Positions 35,440 through 43,047 of a stretch of 64,000 nt of DNA are shown piece after piece. Under the pieces are notes generated by a model. That model had not been told where the DNA came from, searched no databases, and saw only the letters and a program-made list of their open reading frames with translations. The stretch spans positions 62,001 to 126,000 of the forward strand of contig NZ_SLVX01000009.1 of assembly GCF_004341885.1 (NCBI RefSeq), written 5' to 3'. Numbering within the stretch: the stretch's first letter is position 1; every line of letters starts with the position of its first letter. This DNA comes from Shinella granuli. Its GTDB lineage: Bacteria; Pseudomonadota; Alphaproteobacteria; Rhizobiales; Rhizobiaceae. Position numbers and translations under genes: made by a program.

Positions 35440-36672
35440 TCAGGCGTTGAGGAACTCGTCCCATTTCTGGATGAGGTGGTCGTATTCGTCCGGCCACTGG
35501 TGCCAGTAGGCGACGTTCTTTGCGCGCTCCTCCAGCGAGCCGCCGTCGCGCAGGTCCCCCTCCTTGATGCCGCGCTCCTCCGCGCCGACCCAGGGCTTGC
35601 CCTCGTACCAGAAGGCGTATTTCTCCGGGGACATGACATCCTTGATGTTGGTGGAGGGCGAATAATAGCCCTGTTCGGAGACAGTGATGCCGGGCTCGCC
35701 CGAGAGCCAGTAGTCGGCATAGGCGATGACGGCGTCGCGGTTGGCCGTGCCGGCGATCATCGAGGGACCGATCGCCCAGCCGCGATAACCTTCCTTCGGC
35801 ACGGCGTACTTGCAGGCCTTGCCCTGCGCCTTGACGGCCATGACGGCCGGCTGCCAGGCGTCGCAGACGACCATCTCGCCCGAGGCCATCAGGTTGACCA
35901 GCTCGCCGAAATCGCCCCAGAGCGCGCGGAACTGGCCTTCCTTCTTCTTGGAGACGAGGAAGGCGGCGGCCTCGTCGATCTCGGCGGCGGTCGGGTTGCC
36001 GGGGTTCTTCACATCCGACAGGCCGAGCGTGTTCATCGCCATGATGGCCTGGCCGAAGGCGATGAGCGGGTCGGTGTTGAGGCCCGACTTGCCCTTCCAC
36101 TTCGCATCGAAGATCGCCGTCCAGGTGTTGGCCTCCTCGTCGGAGAGCACATCCGGATTGTAGCCGATGGAATCGTAGTTGTAGACGGCAGGCACCATGT
36201 TGAGCACGGTCTGGCCCTCGTCCGCCCAGATCTGGCCGACGATCTGCGCGGCACGGTCCCACTTGTCGCTCGCCGTGGTGAAGGTGTCGCGGATATTGGC
36301 CCAGTTCTTCAGCGAGGCGGCCGGGATCGTCTCGACATTGTCGGTCATGACGATGGAGGGCAGGCGCTCGGCGATGATCTCCCAGCAGTCGTAGTCCTTC
36401 GAGCCCGAGAGGATCTTCGTCTGCGCGTCCGGGAAGGTGGCCGCGGTGCCCGAGGTGCCGCCGACGCCGGAGGCCTTCTTGAACTCCTCGAGGATGCGCT
36501 CCTGCACCGTCACGGAAAGGCCGATGGTGCGCAGCTGCTGGCCGGCGAGGTCAGCGGCCTGCGCGAAGGCCATGCGTGAGGAGAGGAACGGCGTGCCGCC
36601 GCCCATCGCCAGCGCCATCACCCCGGCCGAGCGCTTGAGGAGCGAGCGGCGATTGATTTCCGACTTGAACAT
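35440..36672 (-). CDS. Polyamine-type ABC substrate-binding protein, Tat-exported
   Basis: The 410-residue protein starts with a twin-arginine signal ('INRRSLLKRSAGVMALAMGG'), followed by a PotD/PotF-type binding fold: 'QQLRTIGLSVTVQERILEEFKK', 'AVYNYDSIGYNPDVLSDEEANTW', 'GDFGELVNLMASGEMVVCDAWQ' and 'RGWAIGPSMIAGTANRDAVIAYADYWLSG' (shown in part). It should deliver the ligand to permeases 39137 and 38288. ATG 36672 follows GGAGA. It is paralogous to the signal-less protein at 30633. The ligand may be a cyclic amide, imide or polyamine derivative, judged only from neighbours. Confidence 0.9.
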   Translation of the reverse strand: MFKSEINRRSLLKRSAGVMALAMGGGTPFLSSRMAFAQAADLAGQQLRTIGLSVTVQERILEEFKKASGVGGTSGTAATFPDAQTKILSGSKDYDCWEIIAERLPSIVMTDNVETIPAASLKNWANIRDTFTTASDKWDRAAQIVGQIWADEGQTVLNMVPAVYNYDSIGYNPDVLSDEEANTWTAIFDAKWKGKSGLNTDPLIAFGQAIMAMNTLGLSDVKNPGNPTAAEIDEAAAFLVSKKKEGQFRALWGDFGELVNLMASGEMVVCDAWQPAVMAVKAQGKACKYAVPKEGYRGWAIGPSMIAGTANRDAVIAYADYWLSGEPGITVSEQGYYSPSTNIKDVMSPEKYAFWYEGKPWVGAEERGIKEGDLRDGGSLEERAKNVAYWHQWPDEYDHLIQKWDEFLNA

Positions 36673-36700
36673 GTCTCTTCTCCAGTTGTTATCGTTCCCC

Positions 36701-36719
36701 GGAGCCGCCCCGCGGCTCC
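36701..36719. other. Stem-loop between dehydrogenase and binding-protein genes
   Basis: The stem GGAGCCGC/GCGGCTCC with a 3-base loop is followed on the plus strand by TTTTT. The genes here run leftward, so the T tract is on the wrong side for them. A second, imperfect pairing (GCAATTCCGG at 36729 with 36762-36771) sits beside it. The 99-base gap may be a processing point within the operon. Confidence 0.4.
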
Positions 36720-36771
36720 TTTTTGTCTGCAATTCCGGGCGCAAACCGCTGCACATGCTTGCCGGGATTGC

Positions 36772-37553: not shown

Positions 37554-38288
37554 TCACAGCATGACGTCGCCGGAATTCGGCCCGAGCGTCTGTCCGACGA
37601 AGAGGCTGGCGGCGGGGGATGCGAGGAAGGCGACGGTCTCGGCCACCTCCTCCGGCTCGCCGAAACGGCCGAGCGGCAGGCCCGCCCGCTTGGCGGCCCG
37701 CCAGTCCTCCGAAAGCTGCATGACGAGCGGCGTGTTGATCGGGCCGGGCGCGACGGCGTTGACGCGCACCCCGCGGGCGGAAACCTCGCGGGCAAGCGCC
37801 TTGGTCATGCCGATGATCGCGGCCTTGGCGCCGGAATAGTGCACGAGCTCGACGCCGCCGATCTGGCCGAGCTGCGAGGCGACGTTGACGATGACGCCCG
37901 CCCCGGCGGAGAGCATCGCCGGCAGCACGGCCCTGGTCATCAGGAACGTGCCGCGCACATGCACGGCGAACATGCGGTCGAAATCGCGGACATCGAGGTT
38001 CTCGAACAACGCCTGATGGGCGATGCCGGCATTGTTGACGAGCAGCGTGACATCGCCATGCGCCGCGACGGCGGCAAGATGGATGGCCGCGACATCCGCC
38101 TCGCCGGAGACATCGCCCGCCACGGCGACGGCCTTGCCGCCCGCCACGCGGATCTCGTCCGCCACCGCCTCGGCGCGCTCGGACGAGAGGTCGTTGACCG
38201 TCACGGCGTAACCGTCCGCCGCGAGCTTCATCGCGATGGCGCGGCCGATGCCGGAGCCTGCGCCGGTGACGAGAGCTGCGCCCGCCAT
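37554..38288 (-). CDS. Short-chain dehydrogenase/reductase (SDR)
   Basis: The 244-residue SDR has 'LVTGAGSGIGRAIA' (NAD(P) site), 'NNAGIAH', the catalytic 'VELVHYSGAKAA' with Tyr-x3-Lys, and ends 'FVGQTLGPNSGDVML'. It is a distinct paralogue of the 36772 enzyme. Its ATG shares one base with the stop of the upstream permease (TGATG), so it is firmly part of the transporter operon. Two linked SDRs suggest successive or stereospecific oxidation of a hydroxylated substrate after import; the substrate is unknown. Confidence 0.9.
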   Translation of the reverse strand: MAGAALVTGAGSGIGRAIAMKLAADGYAVTVNDLSSERAEAVADEIRVAGGKAVAVAGDVSGEADVAAIHLAAVAAHGDVTLLVNNAGIAHQALFENLDVRDFDRMFAVHVRGTFLMTRAVLPAMLSAGAGVIVNVASQLGQIGGVELVHYSGAKAAIIGMTKALAREVSARGVRVNAVAPGPINTPLVMQLSEDWRAAKRAGLPLGRFGEPEEVAETVAFLASPAASLFVGQTLGPNSGDVML

Positions 38289-39133
38289 CACGCCTCCTCC
38301 TGGATCGCCATGCGCTTGGCGCGGCGCACCGACAGGCCCATCAGCACGGCATAGGTGCCGAGCAACGCGAAGGAGAACAGCGTGGTCAGCACGCCAAAGG
38401 CGAAGACGTTCGGATGCACTTCCACCGAGAAGGTGCCGTAGATGGCGAGCGGCAGCGTCAGGTCCCGGCCCGAGGCGAAGAGCGTGCGCGAGAATTCGTC
38501 GTAGGAGAGCGTGAAGGCGAAGAGCATGGCCGAGAGCACGCCGGGGAAGATCAGCGGGAAGGTGATCTTGCGGAAGGTCCGCGCCGGGGTGACGCCGAGC
38601 GACCAGGCGGCTTCCTCCACGCTCGGATCGAAGCGGTTGAAGATCGCCAGCATGACGAGGAAGGCGAAGGGGAAGGTGTAGACGACATGCAGCACGAAGG
38701 CCGTGCCCCACCAGTGGCGGTCGACGCCGAGCGTGTTGGCGACCAGCGCCATGCCGAGGCCGACGAGCACGCCGGGCACCATCATGCCGAGCACGATGAG
38801 ATAGAAGACGACGCCCGAGCCGCGAAACTTCTTGCGGAACGCCTGGGCGGCGGTGACGCCGAGCACGGTCGAGACGATCATCGTCATGACGGCGAGCGCC
38901 AGCGAGCGCACCAGCGCCTGTTCGATCGGCAGCGGCGCGATGCGCGAGGGCGGGGTGAGGCCGAAGAGGTGCTTGTACCAGTAGGTCGACCATTCGATGA
39001 TCGGGAATTGCGGCCCACCTTCCGGCCCGGTCTGGAAGGAGAGGATGGCGAGCACGACGAGCGGGCCGTAAAGGAAGACGATGAACAGCGTCGTATAGAG
39101 GCCGAGGCCGAGCTTGATGCCGGAAGCGTTCAT
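38288..39133 (-). CDS. Polyamine-type ABC permease (PotC-like)
   Basis: The 281-residue membrane protein has six hydrophobic segments and the EAA loop 'FDPSVEEAAWSLGVTPARTFRKITFPLIFPG'. The N-terminus 'LGLYTTLFIVFLYGPLVVLAILSF' is typical of PotC/YdcV permeases. ATG 39133 follows AAGGAG. It starts three bases after the PotB-like stop and makes the second half of the channel with that protein. Confidence 0.92.
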   Translation of the reverse strand: MNASGIKLGLGLYTTLFIVFLYGPLVVLAILSFQTGPEGGPQFPIIEWSTYWYKHLFGLTPPSRIAPLPIEQALVRSLALAVMTMIVSTVLGVTAAQAFRKKFRGSGVVFYLIVLGMMVPGVLVGLGMALVANTLGVDRHWWGTAFVLHVVYTFPFAFLVMLAIFNRFDPSVEEAAWSLGVTPARTFRKITFPLIFPGVLSAMLFAFTLSYDEFSRTLFASGRDLTLPLAIYGTFSVEVHPNVFAFGVLTTLFSFALLGTYAVLMGLSVRRAKRMAIQEEA

Positions 39134-39136
39134 GGC

Positions 39137-40042
39137 TCAGAGCTCCTTCCTGAGATCGACGACCCTGAGCAGCGCGGCGACGACCGCGCCCATCAGGATG
39201 GTCAGCACCACGCCGGCGACCGCGGCGAAGGCCCATTTCAGCGACCCTACCTGGGTGACGATGATGTTGCCGAGGAGGTTGACCTTACGGCCGGACAGCG
39301 CGGCCGAGGTGGCGAATTCGCCGAGCACCATCACGGAGACGAAGATCGCGCCCACCACCACGCCCGGCATGGAGAGCGGCAGGATGATGGTTCTGAAGAT
39401 CCGCCAGAAGCTCGCCCCGAGATCCTGCGCCGCCTCGATGACGGAAGGGTCGATGCGGCCGAGCATGAAGGCGATCGGCCCGACCATGAAGACGCAATAG
39501 ATCTGCGTCATGCCGATGATGACGGAGAGTTCGGAGAACAGCAGCACCTCGATCGGCTGGGTGACGATGCCGAGCTTCATCAGGATCATGTTGATCGCGC
39601 CCTCCTTGCCGAGCATCGGCCGCCAGGCGAGCACGCGGATGAGGAAGGAGGTCCAGAACGGGATGACGCAGAGCACCAGGAGTGCGGTCGAGAGCGTCTT
39701 GTTCTTGACGAAGAGCCCGACGAAGAGCGCCGCCGGATAACCGACGAGGAGGGTGGAGACGAGCACGATCAGCCAGATGCGGACCGTCGTCCAGAGCGCG
39801 CCGAGATAGGTGTCGGAGGAGAAGAAGGTGATCCAGCTCTTCAGCGTCAGCGTCGGCTCGATCTTGAAGGTGGTCTGCGTCCAGAAGGAGACGTAGACCA
39901 TCATCAGGATGGGCGCGACGAGGAAGAGCAGCATCCACAGGACGCCGGGGGCGAGCAGCCAATAGGTGCGGTCCGGCTGCCTGCGGGTGGAAGGCGCCGC
40001 CGTTTCGACGGGCGTGTCATGGCTGGTGGCGGCCATCGTCAT
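39137..40042 (-). CDS. Polyamine-type ABC permease (PotB-like)
   Basis: The 301-residue membrane protein has 'WLLAPGVLWMLLFLVAPILMMVYVSF' at its first membrane segment and the EAA loop 'IDPSVIEAAQDLGASFWRIFRTIILPLSMPG'. ATG 40042 has GGAGAATGAGAG upstream; ATG 40036 is an alternative two codons in. It follows the ATPase gene by 45 bases and pairs with the downstream PotC-like permease. Confidence 0.92.
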   Translation of the reverse strand: MTMAATSHDTPVETAAPSTRRQPDRTYWLLAPGVLWMLLFLVAPILMMVYVSFWTQTTFKIEPTLTLKSWITFFSSDTYLGALWTTVRIWLIVLVSTLLVGYPAALFVGLFVKNKTLSTALLVLCVIPFWTSFLIRVLAWRPMLGKEGAINMILMKLGIVTQPIEVLLFSELSVIIGMTQIYCVFMVGPIAFMLGRIDPSVIEAAQDLGASFWRIFRTIILPLSMPGVVVGAIFVSVMVLGEFATSAALSGRKVNLLGNIIVTQVGSLKWAFAAVAGVVLTILMGAVVAALLRVVDLRKEL

Positions 40043-40087: not shown

Positions 40088-41161
40088 TCAAACGAAGACA
40101 AGGGCGTCCTCCCGTTTCCAGACGAGGGCGTAGCGGGCCTTCTCCTCGAAGGCCTCGGGCGCGGCATGGCTGAGATGCGTCTCCACCTCGAAGACGCGGC
40201 CGTCGTCGAGCGTGAAGAAGGAGTTGATCGCCGCGCCGGAATACTCGCTGGCGACGAAGCTCGCCTCGATGCGCACCTCGTCGCCAGCGGCCGCCGCATC
40301 TCTCGGGCGGATCGCAACACGGTCGTAGCGGATGGCGTAGGCCGGCCTGCCGGATGCCTGGCGCACGCCGCCGAGCGCCAGGCGGCCGACGGGGCTCTCG
40401 AAGACATTGCCCGAGACCGCGCCGGAAAAGATGTTGTAGCAATTGAGGAAACGCGCGACGTCGGCGGAGGCCGGGCGGCTGTAGAGCGTGCCGGCATCCG
40501 TCGCTTGCGCGATGCGGCCGCGATCGAGCACCAGCACGGTGTCGCCCATGGCGAGCGCCTCGGTCTCCGAACCGGTGACGTGGAGGAAGGTGACGCCGCA
40601 GCGCTCGCGGATGGTGCGGAGCTCCCCGCGCATGCGCGTGCGCAGGTTGGCGTCGAGCGCGCCGAGCGGCTCGTCGAGCAGCACCATGCTCGGCTCCGTC
40701 ACCAGCGTGCGGGCGAGCGCCACGCGCTGCTTCTGGCCGCCGGAGATCTGCGTGACGGCGCGGTCTTCGAGGCCCGTGAGCCCGACGAGGCCGATCATGT
40801 CGCGCACCCGGGCGGTGACGGCCTTCGCGTCCGTCACCGGGGCGACGGCGCGGTTCTCGAGGCCGAAGGCGATGTTCTGCGCGACGCTCAGATGCGGAAA
40901 GAGCGCGAAATTCTGGAAGACGAAGCCGATGCCGCGCTCATGCGGCGGCACGCCGTCGATGCGCCTGCCGGCAAAGAGGATCTCCCCGCCGTCCGGCTGC
41001 TCGAAGCCGGCGATGACGCGCAACAGCGTCGTCTTGCCCGAGCCCGACGGCCCGAGCAGCGAGACATAGGAATTGTCCATGAGCGCCGCATCGACGCCCG
41101 CAAGCGCCGGCACGCCGGCAAAGGCCTTGTGCACATTCTTCAATTGGAGGACGGCTGACAC
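40088..41161 (-). CDS. Polyamine-type ABC ATPase lacking the H-loop histidine
   Basis: The 357-residue protein has Walker A 'GPSGSGKTT' (residues 37-45), Q-loop 'FVFQNFALFPHLSV', a signature '[17 protein letters not shown]' and Walker B 'MVLLDEPLGALDAN', then a TOBE-like C-terminus. The switch region, normally VTHDxxEA, reads 'HVTGSETEALAMGD': Gly197 (codon 40573-40571) stands where the catalytic His should be. The intact paralogue in this operon (34287) has His there. The start is uncertain: GTG 41161 was chosen; no ATG is well placed. It is the first gene of the operon. Reduced or asymmetric ATPase activity, perhaps in a heterodimer with the 34287 protein, is inferred. Confidence 0.85.
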   Translation of the reverse strand: MSAVLQLKNVHKAFAGVPALAGVDAALMDNSYVSLLGPSGSGKTTLLRVIAGFEQPDGGEILFAGRRIDGVPPHERGIGFVFQNFALFPHLSVAQNIAFGLENRAVAPVTDAKAVTARVRDMIGLVGLTGLEDRAVTQISGGQKQRVALARTLVTEPSMVLLDEPLGALDANLRTRMRGELRTIRERCGVTFLHVTGSETEALAMGDTVLVLDRGRIAQATDAGTLYSRPASADVARFLNCYNIFSGAVSGNVFESPVGRLALGGVRQASGRPAYAIRYDRVAIRPRDAAAAGDEVRIEASFVASEYSGAAINSFFTLDDGRVFEVETHLSHAAPEAFEEKARYALVWKREDALVFV

Positions 41162-41354
41162 CTCTGTTCCCACCAGTTCCGGCCAGGACCTTCGGCGCAC
41201 GGGGCTCCGCATCCCCGGGCGCGAAGAGGCCGTCGGAGAGGGCAAGAGGCTCCCGTTCGCGCATCGGTCAGATGCGCGGCGCAGCGTCGATCCTGAGCAT
41301 TTCGTTTTGTTCCACTGTCGACGCCTCTTCCGGGCGTCTTGTTGTCAAAACCAT

Positions 41355-41379
41355 GGCATAAATGATTTTTGTATTCAAT
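41355..41379. promoter_or_regulatory. GntR-type operator candidate 1 (proximal to ABC operon)
   Basis: GGCATAAATGATT (41355-41367) is followed by TTGTATTCAAT (41369-41379). The TTG-N4-CAA core is the kind of short dyad bound by FadR-subfamily GntR proteins. The same composite occurs inverted at 41621-41644. Operator role is inferred. Confidence 0.55.
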
Positions 41380-41620
41380 AGACTTTTTAGAAATTTCTAT
41401 CGCGGGGCCGTTCCGGCATTTTGCTCATGAATTTCCGGCTGCGGAGACGTCGTCCTCGCACCAAGGCTTTCCACGTCTTCTGGCGAATTTCCGCGCATTA
41501 TGCGCAAAGTTCACCGCTTTCGCCTATAAATTCGGCGACCGAACCGCCATGGTGGCGCGACCAGCGATAGCGCGCCGTCATCTTTCGTGCTCGAAGAACT
41601 GCCGAGGCTATCTTCAAATT

Positions 41621-41644
41621 TTGTATTCAATAATCATTTATGCC
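41621..41644. promoter_or_regulatory. GntR-type operator candidate 2 (proximal to GntR gene)
   Basis: TTGTATTCAAT (41621-41631) followed by AATCATTTATGCC (41632-41644). The second half is the exact reverse complement of 41355-41367, so the two sites face each other across about 240 bases. It lies 68 bases before the GntR start, fitting autoregulation. Confidence 0.55.
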
Positions 41645-41711
41645 ATCCTTTCCTTGCGGCGGAGAATGCGGCAGAGTGCTGCCCTCCACGAGGCCGACGG
41701 ATCAGGACCCC

Positions 41712-42722
41712 ATGAAGGACGAGCAGGCAGCCACCGGCACCCAGCGACGCTACGCGATCGCCGAGGACGTGCTGCGCAGCAATATCGAAGCGGGCACGCT
41801 GCCACCCGGCCTGGTGCTCCTGGAAGGCCCGATCGCCGACATCCTGCAGACCTCGCGCGCGCCGGTGCAAAGGGCGCTGCAGGCGCTGGAGGCGGAGGGG
41901 CTGGTGCACCGCTTTTCCGGCCGCGGCTTCCTGGTCGGCCCGCCGGGCGCCGGCATCGAGCCGAACCGCACGGACATCAAGGCGCTCGGGCTCATCGTGC
42001 CGCGCCATGCGGACGAGGCGCTGCAAAGCCGCTCCTCCTGGGAGCGCATCTACAACCAGGTCGAGGCGGACGTCGCCGGCTGCGTGGTGTTCGGCCGCTA
42101 CCGCATCATCGAGATGGAGCTCGCCACCCATTTCAACGTCAGCCGCACCGTGGTGCGCGACGTGCTGACGCGCCTGCGCGAGCGGGGGCTCGTGCGCAAG
42201 AACCAGAGCTCGCACTGGATCGCCGGGCCGCTGACCGCCCAGACGGTGAAGGACCATTTCGTGCTGCGCACCATGCTGGAGCCGCCGGCGATCCGTCTTG
42301 GCGCGCGTGCCGTCAACCAGGCGCGGCTGGAGGCGCTGCTGAAGCGCCTGCGCGCCGCCGAGGAGGCGAGCGCCGCCGGCTCCCTGCGCGAAAGCGAGGC
42401 GATCCAGACCGAATTCATCGAATGCTGCGTGCTCGCCGCGCCGAACGAGCGGCTGAAGGATCTCGTGCGCAACAACCTCCTGCCCGTCACGGCCACCGAC
42501 CGGCTGCTGCGCCGCCTCGGCCTGCCGGGCGATCCCGCGATCATCACGGAGCTGCGGCTGGTCGGCGAGCTTCTGCTGCGCGGGGCGACGGAAGCGGCCG
42601 TCTCGATGATGGAGACCCATCTGGAGGCCTCGCTGAACCGCACCATCGCCCAGATGAAGATCGTCGCGATCATCCCCGGGCCGGGCGTCACGGCGGCGTA
42701 TCTGACACCCGTGCTGGATTGA
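41712..42722 (+). CDS. GntR-family regulator with two winged-helix domains
   Basis: The 336-residue protein has two GntR-like winged helices in tandem. The first (residues 14-76) contains 'AEDVLRSNIEAGTLPPG' and 'APVQRALQALEAEGLVHR'. The second (about 110-170) contains 'IYNQVEADVAGCVVFGRYRI' and 'SRTVVRDVLTRLRERGLVRK'. A helical FCD-like effector domain follows ('FVLRTMLEPPAIRLGARAV' onward, with 'MMETHLEASLNRTI' near the end). Normal members have one winged helix and about 230 residues. ATG 41712 follows AGGA; the frame is open upstream to 41640, inside the operator. It probably senses a substrate of this locus and controls the divergent ABC operon. Confidence 0.87.
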   Translation: MKDEQAATGTQRRYAIAEDVLRSNIEAGTLPPGLVLLEGPIADILQTSRAPVQRALQALEAEGLVHRFSGRGFLVGPPGAGIEPNRTDIKALGLIVPRHADEALQSRSSWERIYNQVEADVAGCVVFGRYRIIEMELATHFNVSRTVVRDVLTRLRERGLVRKNQSSHWIAGPLTAQTVKDHFVLRTMLEPPAIRLGARAVNQARLEALLKRLRAAEEASAAGSLRESEAIQTEFIECCVLAAPNERLKDLVRNNLLPVTATDRLLRRLGLPGDPAIITELRLVGELLLRGATEAAVSMMETHLEASLNRTIAQMKIVAIIPGPGVTAAYLTPVLD

Positions 42723-42781
42723 GAAGCAGCGGATCGCAAGGCGTCCGCCCGCCTCCCGCGAAGAGGCCGGGTCATGCCGTC

Positions 42782-42938
42782 CACCCCCCTCTGGCCTGCC
42801 GGCCATCTCCCCCTCAAGGGGGGAGATTGGATGGGGCACCGTTCCGCCAATCTCCAAAGTTGCCAATTGAGCAAGGTTTTCGCCTCTTGCCGATCTCCCC
42901 CCTTGAGGGGGAGATGGCCGGCAGGCCAGAGGGGGGTG
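42782..42938. repeat. Long inverted repeat between convergent genes
   Basis: Bases 42782-42827 and 42893-42938 are perfect inverted copies over 46 positions, separated by 65 bases. Each arm carries an internal short palindrome (CCCCCTCAAGGGGG). The left arm leads into a further hairpin with arms GGAGATTGG (42822-42830) and CCAATCTCC (42847-42855). No transposase and no target-site duplication were seen. It fills most of the 325-base gap between the converging GntR and pxpC genes and could act as a bidirectional transcription block. Similar palindromic repeats are common between genes in Rhizobiales. Confidence 0.85.
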
Positions 42939-43047
42939 CCTCGTAACGCCACGACCAGGCCGCCCTCGCTGCACGGACAATGACCCCGCCCCGCCGGGCA
43001 GGACATGTCTCGTCATGAGCGCGGCGGCCGGTCGCATCGCCCCTCCC

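Follow-up and report, generated by a model that had tools for sequence, protein, structure and literature searches.

Evidence for DNA looping in bacteria usually comes from a small number of model operons whose spacers have been engineered to different lengths. The lac and gal operons of Escherichia coli each combine two operators, helical phasing and DNA loops, and the phasing was measured with engineered spacers. The locus described here resembles them in having two phased operators, for which a loop is likewise proposed, and differs in its regulator, since the LacI-family proteins of lac and gal are unrelated to it. Within the GntR family, AraR of Bacillus subtilis displays cooperativity and looping; it shares the GntR-type DNA-binding domain with the regulator of this locus and differs from it by a LacI-type sensor domain and a single HTH.

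Two published GntR systems are used here for comparison. Atu1419 of Agrobacterium fabrum is a VanR-group FCD GntR repressor which, in the sections of the report drawn on here (PMC7797058), forms a tetramer and recognizes two 10-bp palindromes that are 190 bp apart and in which the G at position 3 is essential. A repression loop over the divergent intergenic region was proposed there from the structure of the tetramer. Suvorova et al. (2015) reported on GntR divergons that contain double sites as well as “additional half-sites,” and in the part of that study considered here (PMC4494728), an inter-site distance that rises with intergenic length was taken to mean that the sites are presumably independent.

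Within the window, which is the whole stretch of DNA analyzed (64 kb), two composite sites lie between an ABC-transporter operon on the minus strand and a divergently oriented GntR gene. The features of the locus are as follows.

35440..36756, minus strand: solute-binding protein of the ABC operon (Pfam).
38288..39133, minus strand: ABC permease (Pfam).
39137..40042, minus strand: ABC permease (Pfam).
40088..41161, minus strand: ABC transporter ATPase, first gene of the divergent operon (Pfam), with a GTG start at 41161.
41353..41387, minus strand: operator A, the one nearer the ABC operon; in the direction of the ABC gene its sequence is AAAAGTCTATTGAATACAAAAATCATTTATGCCAT, with about 30 conserved positions (82 loci).
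41357..41367, minus strand: outer box of A, AATCATTTATG in the direction of the ABC gene, kept at a fixed distance from the dyad.
41369..41378, no strand assigned: core dyad of A, TTGTATTCAA, identified from the sequence and centered between 41373 and 41374.
41380..41387, minus strand: second outer box of A, AAAAGTCT in the direction of the ABC gene, conserved in A and not in B.
41388..41619, no strand assigned: spacer between the operators, unconserved in sequence, its length shifting mainly by multiples of about 11 bp.
41620..41646, plus strand: operator B, the one nearer the GntR gene, TTTGTATTCAATAATCATTTATGCCAT, lying 92 bp upstream of that gene's start codon.
41621..41630, no strand assigned: core dyad of B, TTGTATTCAA, centered between 41625 and 41626, 252 bp from the center of A.
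41712..42722, plus strand: GntR regulator gene (Pfam, NCBIfam, AlphaFold2).

As the initial annotation had recorded, GGCATAAATGATT occurs exactly at 41355-41367 on the plus strand and at 41632-41644 on the minus strand, and each of these 13-mers is adjoined by TTGTATTCAAT (41369-41379 and 41621-41631, both read on the plus strand). The bracketed distance, given there as 240 bases, is approximately right, with 241 bases measured between the inner edges. The claim that matched composites face each other also stands, but TTGTATTCAAT is not a direct repeat: it is nearly its own complement (TTG-WATW-CAA), and the direct-repeat appearance arises because the core TTGWATWCAA is quasi-palindromic. The 27-bp unit as a whole forms a true inverted pair, at 41353-41379 on the minus strand and 41620-41646 on the plus strand, in which ATTGAATACAAAAATCATTTATGCCAT and TTTGTATTCAATAATCATTTATGCCAT differ by 4 mismatches (identity 23/27). 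The inversion of the whole composite means that each copy is oriented alike relative to its own gene.

No further matches to GGCATAAATGATT were found within the 64-kb window at up to 2 mismatches, and two or more matches arose in 5 of 100 shuffles; for TTGTATTCAAT, searched at up to 1 mismatch, the same happened in 3 of 100. The search of the genome for the composite that had been suggested as a check returned just two 27-bp copies in 6.59 Mb at up to 3 mismatches, both of them at this locus, with 0 matches for a reversed control pattern at the same threshold. Scanning the 64-kb window for inverted 27-bp pairs (up to 4 mismatches, starts 50 to 500 bp apart) gave 36 matches at two places, the operator pair and an unrelated long repeat around 42777-42943. 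The latter is a long, nearly perfect inverted repeat directly 3′ of the GntR gene and presumably resembles an intergenic repeat element.

An inverted 27-bp pair measuring about 290 bp from end to end also has the shape of the terminal inverted repeats of a small, MITE-like mobile element. Multiple copies would be expected of such an element, whereas this pair is present once in the genome; it stands in the identical place beside the GntR gene in 90 loci, and its ends are conserved whereas the spacer is not. We give this origin practically no credence and rejected mobile-element ends on the strength of the single genomic copy.

The conservation of the sites was assessed in 47 orthologous loci, including Shinella, Rhizobium, Ensifer, Agrobacterium and Phyllobacterium, which remained from 48 gathered after L081 (a partial match, 39%) was left out. 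In the aligned upstream regions of these loci, the operators are the sharpest conserved islands and the intervening spacer is unconserved; weaker conserved blocks appear in both leaders, that is, in the stretch from A to the ABC gene and just before GntR. Site A was found in 47 of 47 loci (up to 4 mismatches to the 27-mer) and site B in 46 of 47 (up to 5 mismatches to one of two consensus forms), L076 having no recognizable B. Operator A is conserved over about 30 positions, AAAAGtCTATTGaATACAAAAATCATTtATG (82 loci), with an outer box about as conserved as the core. Operator B is weaker and drifts faster; it retains the dyad together with a single outer box, GTATtCAAtA.tCATTTat (80 loci). Symmetry of the two outer arms, as judged from the aligned sites, is suggestive only for A (P = 0.07), the value for B being 0.44.

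On the transporter side, about 190 bp separate operator A from the GTG start at 41161. This start was assigned using both the sequence and an annotated relative in which the distance to GntR is equal. Pfam supports an ATPase, two permeases, a solute-binding protein and a polysaccharide deacetylase in the operon; two short-chain dehydrogenases and a second ATPase near the solute-binding gene were named by matching gene order with pRL12 of R. johnstonii 3841. The ABC leader (41162-41352, minus strand) contains conserved blocks downstream of A, around cGC.....AGAaGCg......G.gGaAC. Rfam gave 0 matches at E up to 1 in 41100-41720, and the consensus fold of this leader is one 8-bp hairpin lacking covariation support; an RNA element was rejected on these grounds. 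A conserved leader peptide was likewise rejected, the short apparent reading frame of Shinella being broken in relatives, as judged by eye. In R. johnstonii 3841, an annotated hypothetical protein (L158:8656-8901) overlaps the operator spacer; this is probably not a real gene, given that the spacer sequence is unconserved among relatives.

The initial annotation had described the regulator as a tandem-domain protein, and this was borne out by both Pfam, which detects two GntR winged helices and an FCD domain, and the AlphaFold2 model, which contains two winged helices. The first GntR winged helix spans residues 17-75, the second about 108-166 and the FCD domain 183-305. PF00392 matches 2 stretches of the protein (E 1.2e-21), PF07729 (FCD) scores 42.3 bits against a cut-off of 24.3 (E 1.2e-10), and NCBIfam models span residues 108-166 and 105-310. 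In the AlphaFold2 model (mean pLDDT 85), a helix-turn-helix plus wing appears twice (about 38-75 and 134-171), followed by a helical part from residue 176, and Foldseek searches with this model matched FCD regulators, including Atu1419 and AlkR. The contact arginine of the recognition helix is retained in both winged helices, as R49 and R145, without variation among the aligned proteins (34 of 34); these residues were equated with Arg45 of Atu1419 on the basis of the S-R motif.

Solved FCD relatives usually carry one winged helix per subunit, a feature that is not strictly defining, and this regulator has two. All 20 PDB chains matched by sequence at E 1e-5 are 78 to 265 residues long, too short for both winged helices and the FCD domain, and among open-license PMC papers we recognized no study of tandem-winged-helix GntR/FCD regulators. 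Compared with Atu1419 as described in the sections consulted (PMC7797058), the locus is alike in its FCD regulator, in its two sites between divergent genes and in its 10-bp palindrome with G at position 3: the core dyad TTGTATTCAA has the FCD/VanR-type 10-mer form and may be compared with ATGTATACAT of Atu1419. It differs in that Atu1419 has one winged helix per subunit and simple 10-mer palindromes, whereas here there are two winged helices and a composite operator. The two proteins share 17 to 20% identity in fold alignments.

Several relatives of the regulator were encountered. A second regulator of about 34% identity (G000:C3:166968-167927) aligns over both GntR domains and FCD, and each of the 21 Shinella genomes has at least one match of this paralogue type (31 to 35% identity). 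An alignment of 13 of 15 upstream regions of these 34%-identity tandem-GntR relatives contained no comparable composite. In homologues at 48 to 50% identity (L139, L140 and L141), another candidate site is present about 446 bp upstream of the regulator, with the sequence TTGTATACATAATCATTTTTTGATGA or one closely similar to it. A plasmid labeled Roseateles sp. XES5 (NZ_CP084754.1) encodes a regulator that is 96% identical; the label may be wrong, as a genome with identical coordinates (G011) belongs to Shinella. Literature searches by guessed locus tags of the R. johnstonii locus retrieved no papers, and keyword searches for effector hints gave nothing useful.

The distribution of the operator was compared with that of the GntR gene. 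Of 21 Shinella genomes, the same 11 carry both operator A (searched at up to 3 mismatches) and the GntR orthologue (E no higher than 1e-90). In Rhizobium, the operator was found at up to 2 mismatches in 38 of 148 genomes and the orthologue in 37, all of which have the operator. The additional genome (G536) has a completeness of 82%, and 446 bases separate its operator from the contig end on the GntR-facing side, so that the exception looks like a cut contig. Operator matches are confined to a single locus in each operator-positive genome of the two genera. With a looser 21-base motif (up to 2 mismatches), at least 116 of the 394 family genomes gave a match, whereas the orthologue is present in 32 of them; loose matches alone therefore mean little, and the motif was dropped as a marker for being too degenerate.

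Co-occurrence ties the sites to the locus and does not by itself separate GntR from the remainder of the locus or establish which protein binds. The GntR protein is the putative binder of the sites; another regulator might bind them instead, with the sites hitch-hiking with the locus. Against this, the composite is found at this locus alone in the genome under study, in Shinella and Rhizobium it tracks the GntR gene (one cut contig apart), and its dyad has the FCD/VanR 10-mer form, which makes a different binder very improbable.

The A-B distance varies, but operator B stays close to the GntR start: most loci have about 92 to 108 bp between the two, and the extreme values are 67 and 117 bp. 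This recalls the “second group” of divergons in the part of PMC4494728 considered here, and it would fit independent double sites that each regulate their own gene only, as presumed by Suvorova et al. for some GntR divergons. Also shared with those divergons are the presence of two sites and of extra boxes 7 to 12 nt from the palindrome center. The locus differs from them, as far as the same part of that study describes, in that the outer box of A is conserved about as well as the core and in that the variable spacing is phase-locked.

This phase-locking was observed by measuring the distance between dyad centers in 138 loci, a set in which the paralogue loci L019-L033 were never included. Removal of 38 loci with an identical intergenic stretch left 100 non-identical ones, and 10 in which A or B was not recognizable at the mismatch limits applied (L018, L076, L137-L141 and L155-L157) were left out to give 90. 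The A-B distances in these 90 loci range from 194 to 320 bp and are bunched near 229, 240, 252, 263, 275 and 285 bp; the spacing of 252 bp was confirmed for the locus of the genome under study (L004). Parsimony on the regulator protein tree yielded 67 spacing changes, and the 38 of at least 4 bp cluster at multiples of about 11 bp (V-test z of 4.04 for a period of 11 bp and of 2.95 for one of 10.5 bp). With a common phase fitted at 11 bp, 76 of the 90 loci lie within 2.5 bp of it (41 expected) and 8 are off phase by more than 3.5 bp.

In simulations of unphased indels on the same tree, including indel sizes drawn from the control regions, the observed z was reached in 0 of 1,800 runs, and in 0 of 5,000 at one indel rate; the 11-bp period had been noticed in the data before testing, and the simulations allow for that only within 10 to 11.5 bp. 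When periods between 5 and 20 bp were scanned in 0.5-bp steps, 11.0 bp came out best in all three site-quality sets. Stricter site quality left 68 loci and 22 changes, with z of 3.66 at 11 bp and 3.63 at 10.5 bp. The signal was weaker when only disjoint sister pairs were counted (22 differences of at least 4 bp, z of 2.44 at 11 bp and 1.31 at 10.5 bp), and cruder tip statistics reached the observed values in 5 of 300 simulations at the lowest indel rate. As a further check, 15 of 43 plasmid matches were fetched, of which 12 were not identical to earlier loci. None of the 12 deviates from the phase by more than 2 bp, and they include an R. laguerreae plasmid with a new spacing of 273 bp versus 284 to 285 bp in the three R. 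leguminosarum plasmids examined alongside it; this support is modest, since the majority of the 12 are closely related to loci in the earlier set.

No period was detected in either of two control distances, from A to the Walker A motif of the ABC gene (18 changes, z of −0.64, with 5 of the 90 loci left out for want of a recognized Walker A) and from B to the GntR start (14 changes, z of −0.83), both of which have fewer changes than the A-B distance and hence less power. Independent sites predict no helical period, whereas it is strong between A and B and absent from both controls. Sites that are each tied to their own gene should show no constraint between them, and here a phase constraint lies between the sites, which makes independence unlikely. 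The locus has two operators between divergent genes, as in a looping divergon of the Atu1419 type, and their position on one helical face is indicated by the comparative phasing, the sister-pair count being weaker. Where the loop of Atu1419 was deduced from structure (PMC7797058, sections consulted), evolutionary phase-locking provides the argument here.

Phasing in itself shows just that the relative face of the helix matters, which could reflect, in place of a GntR loop, a need for the two promoters, their polymerases, phased bends or a nucleoid protein to share one side of the double helix. A consensus search of 41160-41715 identified no sigma-70-like promoter. However, the spacer has no conserved third site for a bending protein, and the phase is present between the operators and not seen when measured to the genes. 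We regard coupling of this kind as rather unlikely.

The sequences are most simply read as suggesting a DNA loop in which A and B share one face of the helix. Evolution of the spacing mainly by whole turns with an unconserved spacer is what would be expected if a protein on A touched a protein on B through a loop, and the neighboring regulator would be the natural candidate for that protein. The cooperative binding or looping proposed in the initial annotation is thereby supported by the conservation of the sites, their co-occurrence with GntR and a spacing that is phase-locked between the sites and not to the genes. We consider it probable that A and B are operators of the adjacent tandem-winged-helix FCD regulator, looped together and probably repressing both divergent genes.

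In this model, the regulator would control this locus only. A dimer would bind the TTGWATWCAA dyad, probably with one pair of winged helices, and the other pair would read one or both outer boxes; this would account for operator conservation over about 30 bp. A and B would be held together by two dimers, as a tetramer or through dimer-dimer contacts, with the approximately 250 bp between the divergent genes looped. Until an effector occupies the FCD domain, both the regulator gene and the transporter operon would most likely be repressed by the loop. GntR-family regulators usually repress rather than activate.

More tentatively, the duplicated winged helix may provide four DNA-reading heads per dimer that clamp the composite operator, with the two operators bridged in an obligatory loop that quantizes spacers at about 11 bp across Rhizobiales. 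Double-site divergons and proposed loops were already known; what is new here is the combination of a long composite operator, a duplicated DNA-binding domain and evolutionary phase-locking, and we recognized no comparative or evolutionary test of loop phasing in the literature as the same test. The natural spacer lengths of the 90 loci serve as a spacer-engineering experiment, and they indicate that variable double-site spacing, read as presumed independence in the part of PMC4494728 considered here, can hide tight coupling. The locus is a compact test case for tandem-winged-helix FCD regulators. If the loop is indeed obligatory, natural sequences alone would give the helical repeat in vivo, and looping regulators could be found from genomes without experiments.
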